From: Comamonas sp. BIGb0152
GTDB lineage: Bacteria; Pseudomonadota; Gammaproteobacteria; Burkholderiales; Burkholderiaceae_C
DNA: 64,000 nt
Assembly: GCF_024809975.1 (NCBI RefSeq)
Contig: NZ_JANUDY010000013.1
Coordinates: forward strand, 1 to 64,000
Direction of reading: 5' to 3'
Part shown: in pieces, positions 24,446-27,204 of the stretch
How the letters are laid out: each line of letters begins with the position of its first letter
Numbering within the stretch: the stretch's first letter is position 1
Notes under the pieces: model-generated
What the model saw: the letters and a program-made list of their open reading frames with translations, nothing else
Database searches by the model: none
Told to the model about the DNA's origin: nothing
Program-made: the position numbers and the translations under genes

Positions 24446-24979
24446 ATGGTCGACAAAGCCCACACCGAATTCTGGCAAAGCCTCAGCCCCATCCCCAACC
24501 CGTTCATGCCCGACGCCTTGCCCGAGGTCTACATCCCGGATGCCGCCAGCGAAGACGAGCGCCTCTATGTCCCGTTTACCGACACGGTGTTTTCCCGCCC
24601 GCTGTGGATCTCGCCATCCCAGAACAAATGGTGCGACATCCTGATGGCCAAGAAGGCGGGTCTCGTCAACCGGCACTACCACCCCCATGAAGTCTTTGCC
24701 TACACGATCTCGGGCAAGTGGGGCTACCTGGAACATGACTGGACGGCGACCAAGGGCGACTTTGTCTATGAGACGCCGGGCGAAGGCCACACCCTGGTCG
24801 CCTTCGACCACCCCGAACCCATGCGGGCCTTCTTCATTGTCAAAGGACCGCTAATCTGGCTCGATGAGCAAGGCCAACCGGACGGCTACTTTGATGTGCA
24901 TTCCTACATCGCCTTGTGCAAGGCCCACTACGAAAAAGTGGGGCTGGGCGCCGCCGCCGTGGAAAAGCTCTTCCGCTGA
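24446..24979 (+). CDS. Cupin dioxygenase-like protein (2,4'-dihydroxyacetophenone dioxygenase family)
   Basis: A 177-residue single-domain cupin. Metal-binding residues are expected in NRHYHPHEVFAYTISG (residues 74-89) and EGHTLVAF near residue 115. The overall sequence (FVYETPGEGH, FFIVKGPLIWLDEQGQPDGY) resembles 2,4'-dihydroxyacetophenone dioxygenase, an Fe(II) cupin that cuts a hydroxyketone to 4-hydroxybenzoate and formate. The true substrate is not known. ATG 24446 is preceded by AAGGAA. First gene of a plus-strand set with an MFS transporter (24 nt downstream) and an SDR, next to the pmd operon, so a role in feeding aromatic acids into it is plausible but inferred. Confidence 0.75.
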   Translation: MVDKAHTEFWQSLSPIPNPFMPDALPEVYIPDAASEDERLYVPFTDTVFSRPLWISPSQNKWCDILMAKKAGLVNRHYHPHEVFAYTISGKWGYLEHDWTATKGDFVYETPGEGHTLVAFDHPEPMRAFFIVKGPLIWLDEQGQPDGYFDVHSYIALCKAHYEKVGLGAAAVEKLFR

Positions 24980-25003
24980 CCGATCCACGATAAGGAGAAC
25001 GCG

Positions 25004-26245
25004 ATGCACACCTCCACCCGTCGCCCCATCTGGAGCTATGAGAATCGGCTGCTGCTGATTCTTTTTCTGACCTTCGGCTTTGTCTTCTTTGACCGCCTGG
25101 CCCTGTCCTTTCTGTTCCCCTTCATGCAAGACGAGCTCGATCTGAGCCAGACCCAACTGGGCATGATCTCATCGGTCCTGGCACTGACATGGGCCCTGTC
25201 CGGGGCGCTGGCAGGCGTCTGGTCAGATTCCCGGGCTAAGCGCAAGTCCTTGCTGGTGGTTGCCGTGCTGGGCTTTTCGATCTGCTCAGCCCTCTCAGGG
25301 CTGGTGGGTGGCTTCATCAGCCTGCTGGTGTTTCGCGCACTGATGGGCCTGGCCGAGGGCCCGGTACTGCCCATCTCGCAGTCCTTGATGATCCAAAGCT
25401 CCTCGCCATCTCGCAGAGGCTTGAACATGGGGCTGCTCCAAGGCTCGTCGGCAGGCCTGATTGGCGCGATGATCGGCCCGCCCGTGGTCATCGGCCTGGC
25501 CACCCACTACGGCTGGCGCCTGGCCTTCTATGTCACCGTCATCCCCGGCATCTTGCTTGCGCTGTGCATATGGCGCTGGGTGCGCGAGCACCCGGACGGC
25601 CTGCCGCCACCGCCGGCCCGGTCGGCCCCCATCAACCGCTGGGCTTTGCTGCGCGAGCGCAATGTCCTGCTGTGCATGCTGATCAGCTGCTTTTTTCTGA
25701 CCTGGTTCATCATCATCATCTCGTTCGCCCCAACCTTCCTCGTCAAATACCGGCAGTTTTCCGCCAGCGACATGGGTTTTGTGATGAGTTGCCTGGGTGC
25801 TGCCTGGGTGTACTGGGGCTTTGCCGTGCCCGCCATCTCCGACCGCATCGGTCGCAAGTCGGCTTTGCTCATCTTTGCCCCCATTGCGGCGCTCAGCCCG
25901 ATTGCCATGATCTACACAGAGTCGGTCACCACGCTGGGGCTGGTCGTATTTCTGACCTACACCCGTCTGGGCTGCTTTACCCTCTTCATGGCCACCATTC
26001 CGGCGGAAACCGTTCCGCCGCAAGTGCTGGCCGGCGCACTGGGCCTCATCATGGGTGCGGGCGAGTTGGTAGGCGGCTTCCTGGCCCCCACCATTGCAGG
26101 CTTTGCGGCCGACCAGTACGGTCTGCCCACCGCGATGTGGATCGCTGCAGGTGGGGCATGCATTGCAGGTCTGCTCGCATTGGGGCTCAAGGAAACCGCC
26201 CCTTTGGTGCTGCAAAGACGTGCCGCCGCAGGAGGCCAGCCATGA
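25004..26245 (+). CDS. MFS transporter, probable aromatic or organic acid uptake
   Basis: A 413-residue permease with about twelve hydrophobic helices. The loop 2-3 motif appears as GVWSDSRAKRKSLL near residue 72, and DRIGRKSALL near residue 283 is its counterpart in the second half. FVFFDRLALSFLFPFMQDELDLSQTQLGMI in the first helix and loop resembles the anion:cation symporter and aromatic acid groups. AGGAG lies six bases before the ATG. It is 24 nt from the cupin gene, so both are likely one transcript and the transported compound is probably the cupin substrate or its precursor. Confidence 0.85.
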   Translation: MHTSTRRPIWSYENRLLLILFLTFGFVFFDRLALSFLFPFMQDELDLSQTQLGMISSVLALTWALSGALAGVWSDSRAKRKSLLVVAVLGFSICSALSGLVGGFISLLVFRALMGLAEGPVLPISQSLMIQSSSPSRRGLNMGLLQGSSAGLIGAMIGPPVVIGLATHYGWRLAFYVTVIPGILLALCIWRWVREHPDGLPPPPARSAPINRWALLRERNVLLCMLISCFFLTWFIIIISFAPTFLVKYRQFSASDMGFVMSCLGAAWVYWGFAVPAISDRIGRKSALLIFAPIAALSPIAMIYTESVTTLGLVVFLTYTRLGCFTLFMATIPAETVPPQVLAGALGLIMGAGELVGGFLAPTIAGFAADQYGLPTAMWIAAGGACIAGLLALGLKETAPLVLQRRAAAGGQP

Positions 26246-26487
26246 GGCTGCGCGCACCTGGTATGCACGGCGCCCCATACCCGCCTCCGAAAAACGCAGA
26301 CTGCGACAGCCCCAGCCCCCCCGTCACTGCCGCTGTCAACGCCAACGCCAGCCTGGATGTAGGCAGCCGTTTAGAAGCGCCCAAGCACCATGGCGGTGCG
26401 GACCTGGCCCAGCACGGTGCGCAGACCAGGGGCCTGCCGCGCCCTACAGCCGCCCCTTACCGCAACCCCCACGCCTAGGAGAACCCC

Positions 26488-27204
26488 ATGCCTCAAACAC
26501 TCAACACCCCATTCATCCTTGTGACAGGAGGTACCTCCGGCATTGGCGCGAGCACGGCCCTGCACTTTGCCCATGCCGGCGCTTCGGTGCTGGCCCTTGG
26601 GCTGGATGCCCAGGGACTGCATGCACCCCGGCATCCGCGTATCCAGTGCCAGGAGCTGGATGTCTGCGACAGCGCGCAGCTGAACCAAACCATAGAAGGC
26701 CTGCCCCGGCTCGATGCGCTCATCAACGCCGCAGGTATCAGCCGCCATGAAAAGGAGTACCAGCCCGAGACCTTCATGCAGGTGCTGCACACCAATTTGA
26801 CGGCCGTCATGCAGGCCTCGATGGCGGCGGCACCGCATTTGCAGCAAAGCCGGGGCTGCATCGTCAATGTGGCCTCTTTGTACAGCTATTTCGGCAGCAA
26901 GGATCGGCCCGCCTACAGTGCCAGCAAAGGCGGCATCGTGCAGCTGACCCGCTCTCTGGCCCAAACCTGGGCGACTGCGGGGGTACGCGTCAATGCCGTG
27001 GCCCCAGGCTGGATCGCCACACCCTTGAGCGAAGGGCTGATGGCCGACCCTGAGGCATCAGCGGGGATTCTGTCCCGCACGCCGATGCAGCGCTGGGGCC
27101 AGGCCGCCGAAGTGGCTGCGGTGATCGGCTTTCTGTGCTCGCCAGCAGCATCCTTTGTCAATGGCGCGGTGATACCGGTCGATGGCGGCTATCTGACGGT
27201 CTAG
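26488..27204 (+). CDS. Short-chain dehydrogenase/reductase
   Basis: A 238-residue classical SDR. The cofactor loop is [10 protein letters not shown] at residues 12-21, the NAAGIS motif is near residue 85, and the catalytic YSASKGG lies near residue 142 with the preceding Ser in [12 protein letters not shown]. The C-terminal [22 protein letters not shown] end is typical of FabG relatives. TAGGAG precedes the ATG. A 242-nt spacer without a gene separates it from the MFS gene. Probably oxidises or reduces a hydroxyl group of an aromatic side chain; substrate unknown. Confidence 0.85.

Follow-up and report, generated by a model that had tools for sequence, protein, structure and literature searches.

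A candidate side-chain-cleaving operon beside the protocatechuate (pmd) operon of a Comamonas clade, probably under the pmd-associated LysR regulator

We analyzed a 64,000-nucleotide (nt) stretch of Comamonas sp. BIGb0152 (contig NZ_JANUDY010000013.1, positions 1 to 64,000, assembly GCF_024809975.1), hereafter the window, for a group of three genes that lies beside the pmd operon and may feed it. Open reading frames (ORFs) came from a program-made list, protein families were assigned with Pfam and NCBIfam, and gene neighbourhoods were read in fetched flanks; genomes and loci are cited by G and L numbers, the window's own genome being G000. The first gene codes for a predicted Fe(II) cupin of 177 amino acids (24446..24979, plus strand; Cupin_7/Cupin_2), related to 2,4'-dihydroxyacetophenone dioxygenase (DAD). 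It is followed on the same strand by genes for a major facilitator superfamily (MFS) permease of 413 amino acids (25004..26245; MFS_1) and a short-chain dehydrogenase/reductase (SDR) of 238 amino acids (26488..27204; adh_short_C2), with gaps of 24 nt and 242 nt, respectively. A gene for a LysR-type regulator (23071..24021, minus strand; Pfam HTH_1 and LysR_substrate) diverges from the cupin gene across 424 nt. On the other side, the pmd operon (28548..36289, minus strand, the pmdU start being taken at 36289) codes for LigA and LigB subunits of the protocatechuate 4,5-dioxygenase type, as recognized by NCBIfam and Pfam. We take its genes to be pmdC, B, A, D/LigI, F, E, K, and U; families GFO_IDH, LigB, LigA, Amidohydro_2, MFS, and PrpF stand behind C, B, A, E, K, and U, while D/LigI and F are provisional labels. 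An aldo/keto reductase (AKR) gene (27438..28523, minus strand; Aldo_ket_red) lies at the 3' end of the pmd genes. The first-pass annotation had described this layout, including the 24-nt spacing and the divergent LysR gene, and our reading agrees with it, except that it had counted the AKR among the possible enzymes of the set. We read seven other Comamonas loci, and in five of them an AKR gene comes directly after pmdC although DAD is lacking at that place; we therefore assigned the AKR to pmd and not to the DAD set.

The cupin aligned over its full length of 177 residues with the DAD of Alcaligenes sp. 4HAP (PDB 4p9g; 332 bits, 137/177 residues identical). The iron ligands are kept as H77, H79, and H115 in window numbering (His 76, 78, and 114 of the 4p9g paper), and 22 of the 23 active-site positions listed in the relevant passages of PMC4219425 are identical, including the three histidines, Tyr93, Glu108, Trp61, Asp63, Ser49, Phe43, and Phe129. 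The lone pocket change, M156L, brings in a leucine that occurs at this position in 52 of 113 aligned rows as well. According to the same passages, the characterized enzyme splits the alpha-hydroxyketone 2,4'-dihydroxyacetophenone into 4-hydroxybenzoate and formate in an O2-dependent reaction (PMC4219425). Together, these results confirm the earlier identification of the cupin as DAD-like and place it among DAD relatives of the closest kind, with a catalysis that is predicted from the alignment. The plain hydroxyacetophenones that had been suggested as test substrates are not expected to be cleaved, since the characterized DAD acts on an alpha-hydroxyketone (PMC4219425). The genome also holds a second DAD-like cupin (C11:53411-53893), 42% identical and with altered pocket residues; in its locus (L084, G000:C11, about 6894-9900) it adjoins two SDR genes, resembling the cupin-SDR pairs of L101-L106.

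We then compared the neighbourhoods of DAD genes in other bacteria. Scanning named genomes yielded 276 relatives, and all counts below refer to the best 80; some loci end early, which lowers the counts, and MFS and SDR genes were called window-type at identities of at least 50% and at least 45%, respectively. A window-type MFS gene lies directly 3' of DAD in 43 of the 80 loci, bearing out the earlier view that these genes are coded as a set. Next in these 43 loci comes a gene for a zinc alcohol dehydrogenase (ADH) in 35, a window-type SDR gene is found in 25, and a divergent AraC gene in 38. Among the remaining 37 loci, 34 have another SDR gene within 8 kb. Overall, 75 of the 80 loci carry one or more of these three kinds of dehydrogenase gene within 8 kb of DAD; none was found within that distance in L025, L038, L044, L045, and L072, of which L038, L045, and L072 reach less than 1.2 kb downstream of the DAD centre. 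Other partners recur. In nine Pseudomonas loci (L028, L029, L031, L032, L034, L035, L040, L046, and L075), genes for an OprB porin and a GMC oxidoreductase follow DAD-MFS-ADH; many alphaproteobacterial loci (L026, L041, L061, L062, L064, and others) have DAD near genes for an SDR, an aldehyde dehydrogenase, and a liv-type ABC transporter; and in 12 loci a gene for a thiamine-diphosphate enzyme, a class that can form or cleave acyloins, lies directly upstream of DAD.

The MFS-SDR gap of the window (26246..26487) is the place at which L004, L005, G019, and G040 carry the zinc ADH gene; neither the window nor L003 has one there. We looked for a remnant in the gap by comparison with the ADH genes of relatives. 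Against the L004 ADH, the 5' end of the gap gave a weak alignment to the start of the gene, with a score reached by 11 of 500 dinucleotide shuffles, and the 3' end gave no convincing one (74 of 500); the window gap against L005 gave 70 and 32 of 500, and the L003 gap against L004 gave 491 and 7 of 500. A blastn search with the gap returned, beyond its own locus, nothing better than E 0.3. We regard the ADH gene as absent from the gap, and a scar is not proven. An ADH orthologue was not found elsewhere in the window's genome either, the best match having 35% identity.

Of 53 Comamonas genomes, 44 hold an orthologue of the divergent LysR protein, with one match per genome (E <= 1e-60), and among the 43 that carry PmdB the count is 42; two further holders (G031 and G051) have as their only close PmdB matches short pieces at contig ends. 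By this distribution, we regard it as the pmd-associated regulator across the genus. In G003, G010, G017, G038, and G042 the order is pmdC-AKR, a facing tctC, LysR, IclR, and pobA; in G003, G038, and G042, other ORFs spanning no more than about 3 kb separate the AKR gene from tctC. In the window and in G040 it is pmdC-AKR, a facing SDR-(ADH)-MFS-DAD, LysR, and surE. In those five loci, as in G007, tctC diverges from the same LysR. The DAD operon occupies the position that tctC has in the five, and it appears to have replaced tctC. In G034 and G035, LysR diverges from pmdU and pobA follows pmdC. The LysR gene lies less than 5 kb from pobA in 31 genomes; a role as direct regulator of PobA was considered and set aside, as in G007 the IclR gene diverges from pobA and the LysR gene from tctC, an order repeated in the five loci. 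These comparisons suggest how peripheral modules may be swapped at a catabolic locus under an unchanged regulator.

In the LysR-DAD intergenic region, the stretch that is best conserved among the six closely related genomes defined below lies just upstream of LysR. The core of this stretch is a putative 25-nt LysR box, TATGCC-N7-TATAGCTGCTAG, which reads towards DAD (24069..24093, plus strand), is identical in the six genomes, and is followed by a -10-like CAGAAT (24130..24135) 61 nt after the box start. A second box without mismatches lies upstream of pmdU (36363..36387, minus strand), with CAGAAT at 36326-36321, that is, at the same spacing, which most LysR-divergent promoters of other Comamonas share. 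At no more than one mismatch, the box core TATGCC-N7-TATAGCTGYTAG has four copies in the 5.0-Mb genome, all within the window; at no more than three mismatches it has six, two of them outside the window, compared with three for a reversed control pattern. Across the genus, the core at no more than two mismatches is present in 45 of 53 genomes, with 90 matches versus 10 for the reversed control. In 33 of the 43 PmdB genomes, a box precedes PmdB by 4-9.5 kb in the same orientation, at the expected place of pmdU; 36 of 44 have a divergent box no more than 400 nt from LysR. These two classes take in 72 of the 90 boxes (three of them protease-side copies of G000 and G019, see below); the other 18 belong to neither. 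A PmdU-like start 3' of the box was checked in the fetched segments alone, by which 10 of the 44 distinct segments were classed as pmdU. In 32 of the 44 segments, the element CA[CG]AAT follows at a distance of 60-62 nt from the box start (shuffles: mean 0.9, maximum 4), a count from related segments to which we attach no probability; by class, it is present in 19/20 LysR-divergent, 7/10 pmdU, and 6/14 unclassed segments. From the position of the boxes and their co-occurrence with the regulator, we infer that LysR binds them, and we propose a box and a regulon for the pmd-associated LysR across Comamonas. The DAD operon would belong to this regulon: the regulator co-occurs with pmd, and boxes precede both DAD and pmdU, each with CAGAAT at +61.

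The two remaining copies, each with one mismatch, lie on the minus strand at 38225..38249 and 39892..39916 and are among the 12 segments lacking CA[CG]AAT at the usual spacing. The former precedes one of two tandem ORFs (37031-38218 and 38689-39879, minus strand) that are 85% alike and have, by eye, the look of secreted serine proteases, with no Pfam match. Their upstream regions, with a box and an RGGT start, resemble the promoter of pmdU and its first codons; by eye, both appear to be incomplete copies of that region; G019 carries a similar protease-side box (L134). The leader between the DAD-side promoter and DAD (window 24157-24300) contains AAGGAA and a short ORF (ATG at 24175, 26 amino acids); in the five other genomes of the clade, an ATG likewise comes soon after AGGAG in this leader, and the peptide is not obviously conserved. 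Another genome of the genus, G001, has two PmdB copies, a box before one of them, no LysR orthologue at E <= 1e-60, no PobA over cut-off, and no DAD; another regulator may serve pmd there. Our literature search found no description of "pmdUKEFDABC" or of a Comamonas protocatechuate PmdR, a pmd regulator described in other journals being possible, and "pmd" does not occur in the text of PMC6449761.

Co-conservation of the set with pmd, which the first-pass annotation had proposed as a check, proved to be confined to one clade. Within the genus, a cupin match was found in 17 of 53 genomes, 13 of them at 70-100% identity. DAD lies beside pmd only in the six genomes with a DAD at least 93% identical to that of the window (G000, G015, G019, G021, G023, and G040; 6/6), whereas in seven other Comamonas genomes with a 70-81% identical DAD, this gene and PmdB are on separate contigs or hundreds of kb apart. 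Among the 80 loci, PmdB (at least 40% identity) occurred within the fetched flanks in four: L003, L004, and L005, which are Comamonas sp. JUb58, Comamonas sp. B21-038, and C. koreensis and belong to this clade, and L025, at 46% and about 9 kb off. Orthologues of the enzyme family thus lie largely apart from pmd, whereas those of the clade do not; the annotation had named occurrence apart from aromatic gene clusters among the findings that would refute its proposal. By identity, the clade's DAD stands nearer to those of Burkholderia and Paraburkholderia (84-87%) than to those elsewhere in Comamonas (70-81%), and a DAD tree of 43 rows did not resolve its deeper origin.

Most of the DAD-carrying genomes searched have the usual exit for 4-hydroxybenzoate, the 3-hydroxylase PobA. 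Fifty of the 80 DAD-bearing genomes were sought and 49, three of them of the clade, were searched with the PobA model TIGR02360; 44 passed its cut-off, two (L021 and L025) had full-length matches just under it, and L003, L004, and L027 were the exceptions without. In Comamonas, 40 of 53 genomes were over the cut-off, and the PmdB-positive genomes free of PobA were G000, G019, G021, G023, and G040, all of the clade, plus G001. The best match in the window's genome scored 26.6 bits against a cut-off of 538.7. PobA is therefore the usual companion of DAD, a pattern from which most of this clade departs, PobA being missing in five of its six genomes. Only G015 has the gene; its product is 72% identical to that of G007, and LysR, IclR, and tctC of the usual locus are not found around it in the fetched 20 kb. 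We also looked for other exits. The genome has 19 FAD_binding_3 matches, and the top four were typed: a 3-hydroxybenzoate-6-monooxygenase-like and a rifampin-monooxygenase-like protein (below cut-off) and a salicylyl-CoA 5-hydroxylase and a UbiH-family protein (above), with no 4-hydroxybenzoate 3-hydroxylase among them. A vanillate exit through VanA was tried as well. The two VanA_C matches of the genome (94 and 49 bits) both combine Rieske and VanA_C domains in Pfam, and the 94-bit one was not called VanA, as its gene adjoins, by eye, an apparent adenosine deaminase gene; another demethylase is possible.

On balance, we consider it somewhat probable that DAD-MFS-SDR is a feeder operon for side-chain cleavage over which the LysR of the pmd operon has gained control. 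In this proposal, LysR would bind the boxes at DAD and pmdU, and the MFS permease would bring in an aromatic compound. The SDR, beside which most relatives have a butanediol-dehydrogenase-like zinc ADH, would turn an aryl-1,2-diol into an aryl alpha-hydroxyketone by oxidation. The latter would be cut by DAD, using Fe(II) and O2, into an aryl carboxylic acid and formate, and the acid, or protocatechuate made from it, would enter the Pmd route. Among solved structures, the ADH of L004 is nearest to (R,R)-butanediol dehydrogenase, and the nearest NCBIfam model to the SDR is meso-2,3-butanediol dehydrogenase (NF052558; 201 bits against a cut-off of 270, a resemblance only). Butanediol dehydrogenases work on vicinal diols and acyloins, and the diol is suggested solely because butanediol-dehydrogenase chemistry adjoins an alpha-hydroxyketone. 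The earlier idea of a feeder of Pmd is thus favoured by the shared box, the promoter spacing, and the place of the operon at the locus; the route through 4-hydroxybenzoate is the part that stays incomplete.

Several observations weigh against this proposal. As the 77% identical Alcaligenes enzyme makes 4-hydroxybenzoate and PobA is missing here and in four of the five sister genomes, the feeder would be incomplete unless there is another hydroxylase or the substrate already bears oxygens at positions 3 and 4. Support for the dehydrogenase chemistry is weak: the SDR has an unassigned short-chain dehydrogenase as its nearest solved relative, and the ADH of Burkholderia has scyllo-inosose 3-dehydrogenase, below cut-off, as its best NCBIfam model. 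In addition, the ADH is missing in two of six genomes of the clade (the window and L003). The permease resembles organic-anion carriers, a poor fit to a neutral diol; its nearest solved relative is a D-galactonate transporter, matched at 47 bits over part of the chain. On the regulatory side, DAD starts 353 nt past the box, behind a poorly conserved leader, and the box could serve LysR autoregulation alone. A box at the pmdU position was not found in 10 of 43 PmdB genomes, no box was found in G034 and G035, and three of the 10 pmdU-classed segments lack the -10-like element. Finally, the six-genome clade counts as one evolutionary event.

Among the alternatives, the one that survives best, although we hold it to be distinctly less probable than a feeder operon under LysR, is that the enzyme follows the canonical DAD route to 4-hydroxybenzoate and formate, the former being turned into protocatechuate by an unrecognized hydroxylase of the clade, used elsewhere, or excreted. 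The pocket residues for the 4-hydroxyphenyl ring, identical to those of 4p9g except for M156L, speak for this route, as does the frequency of PobA in DAD-carrying genomes. The window's own genome, with its 26.6-bit match, and the four typed FAD_binding_3 proteins speak against it; the other 15 such proteins are untyped.

A feeder operon under LysR would itself call either for such a hydroxylase or for a DAD that takes a 3,4-oxygenated aryl hydroxyketone directly to protocatechuate (or vanillate). The second case leads to a more specific proposal, which we put forward tentatively and regard as less likely than not: a PobA-free phenylglycol route in the clade, in which 3,4-dihydroxyphenyl- (or 4-hydroxy-3-methoxyphenyl) ethane-1,2-diol would be oxidized by the SDR to the hydroxyketone and cleaved by DAD to protocatechuate (or vanillate) and formate, the operon having taken over the tctC/pobA locus and its LysR control. 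Passages of PMC6307125 list 3,4-dihydroxyphenylglycol among the aromatics in lignin cultures of Comamonas serinivorans SP-35 and state that a bacterial pathway for it is proposed. Our literature search found no description of a phenylglycol-to-protocatechuate route.

It is unlikely, in our view, that the two operons are neighbours only, DAD having been inserted beside pmd by chance and the box serving the regulator itself. LysR-type regulators commonly bind their own divergent promoters, and the linkage is limited to one clade, the other seven Comamonas DAD genes being unlinked to PmdB. Against chance, a -10-like element follows the DAD-side box at the spacing seen for pmdU, the linkage holds in all six genomes with a DAD at least 93% identical, and the operon stands in place of tctC, itself divergent from the same LysR in the five loci and G007.

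Equally improbable is another substrate class, such as a lignin C3/C2 ketone or an acetophenone glycoside, with DAD cutting something other than a simple phenacyl alcohol. In passages of PMC10866074, a beta-O-4 lignin model compound induces a DAD-like gene in Novosphingobium MBES04, and a phenylpropanone induces the promoter of its cluster; this, an OprB porin gene in 14 and a GMC oxidoreductase gene in 9 of the 43 DAD-MFS loci, as well as the Rieske oxygenase gene with a VanA_C domain next to DAD in L025, fit such substrates, but no glycosidase or etherase was noticed in the set, the pocket matches an enzyme characterized on 2,4'-dihydroxyacetophenone, and NCBIfam gives the L025 protein no VanA name. 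In L025 (Herbaspirillum sp. SJZ107), this gene (10551-11627; VanA_C, 172 bits) lies directly 3' of DAD, and ~8 kb further on there is an ORF with the look of a LigB-LigA fusion dioxygenase (46% identical to PmdB), a possible variant in which DAD would make vanillate.

In the candidate side-chain-cleaving operon beside pmd, the enzyme is accompanied by partner genes that are conserved and by a candidate regulator with a defined 25-nt box, in a genome where we did not find the textbook exit; a question that was vague can thereby be put to a few clean tests. Among known systems, the DAD of Alcaligenes sp. 4HAP (PDB 4p9g and 5bpx), which acts in 4-ethylphenol and 4-hydroxyacetophenone breakdown, is alike in full-length homology, iron ligands, and active-site positions; the Comamonas gene sits with MFS and SDR genes beside pmd, in a genome in which no PobA for the 4-hydroxybenzoate exit was found. 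The first-pass annotation knew of no described pathway with this gene combination. A DAD route through 4-hydroxybenzoate and p-hydroxybenzoate hydroxylase to protocatechuate has, however, already been proposed, also in Comamonas, for C. serinivorans SP-35 (PMC6307125); in the passages concerned, it leads into the beta-ketoadipate pathway, uses the hydroxylase that is missing here, and comes with no mention of an operon or regulator link. Cluster G-II of Novosphingobium sp. MBES04 likewise holds a DAD-like gene in an inducible aromatic-response cluster, but it belongs to another bacterial class and responds to lignin fragments, and its other three genes are called hypothetical in the part of PMC10866074 that describes them. 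The tctC-type pmd locus of Comamonas, with tctC, LysR, IclR, and pobA, shares the pmd genes, the LysR orthologue, the LysR box and, in most cases, the pmdU box; in the window, SDR-(ADH)-MFS-DAD stands in place of tctC, and IclR-pobA is absent from the locus. Finally, the Burkholderia AraC-DAD-MFS-ADH-SDR operon has the same gene order, with DAD 85-87%, MFS 70-72%, and SDR 66-70% identical; there, AraC is divergent, the ADH is kept, and the fetched flanks hold no pmd, whereas Comamonas has LysR instead.

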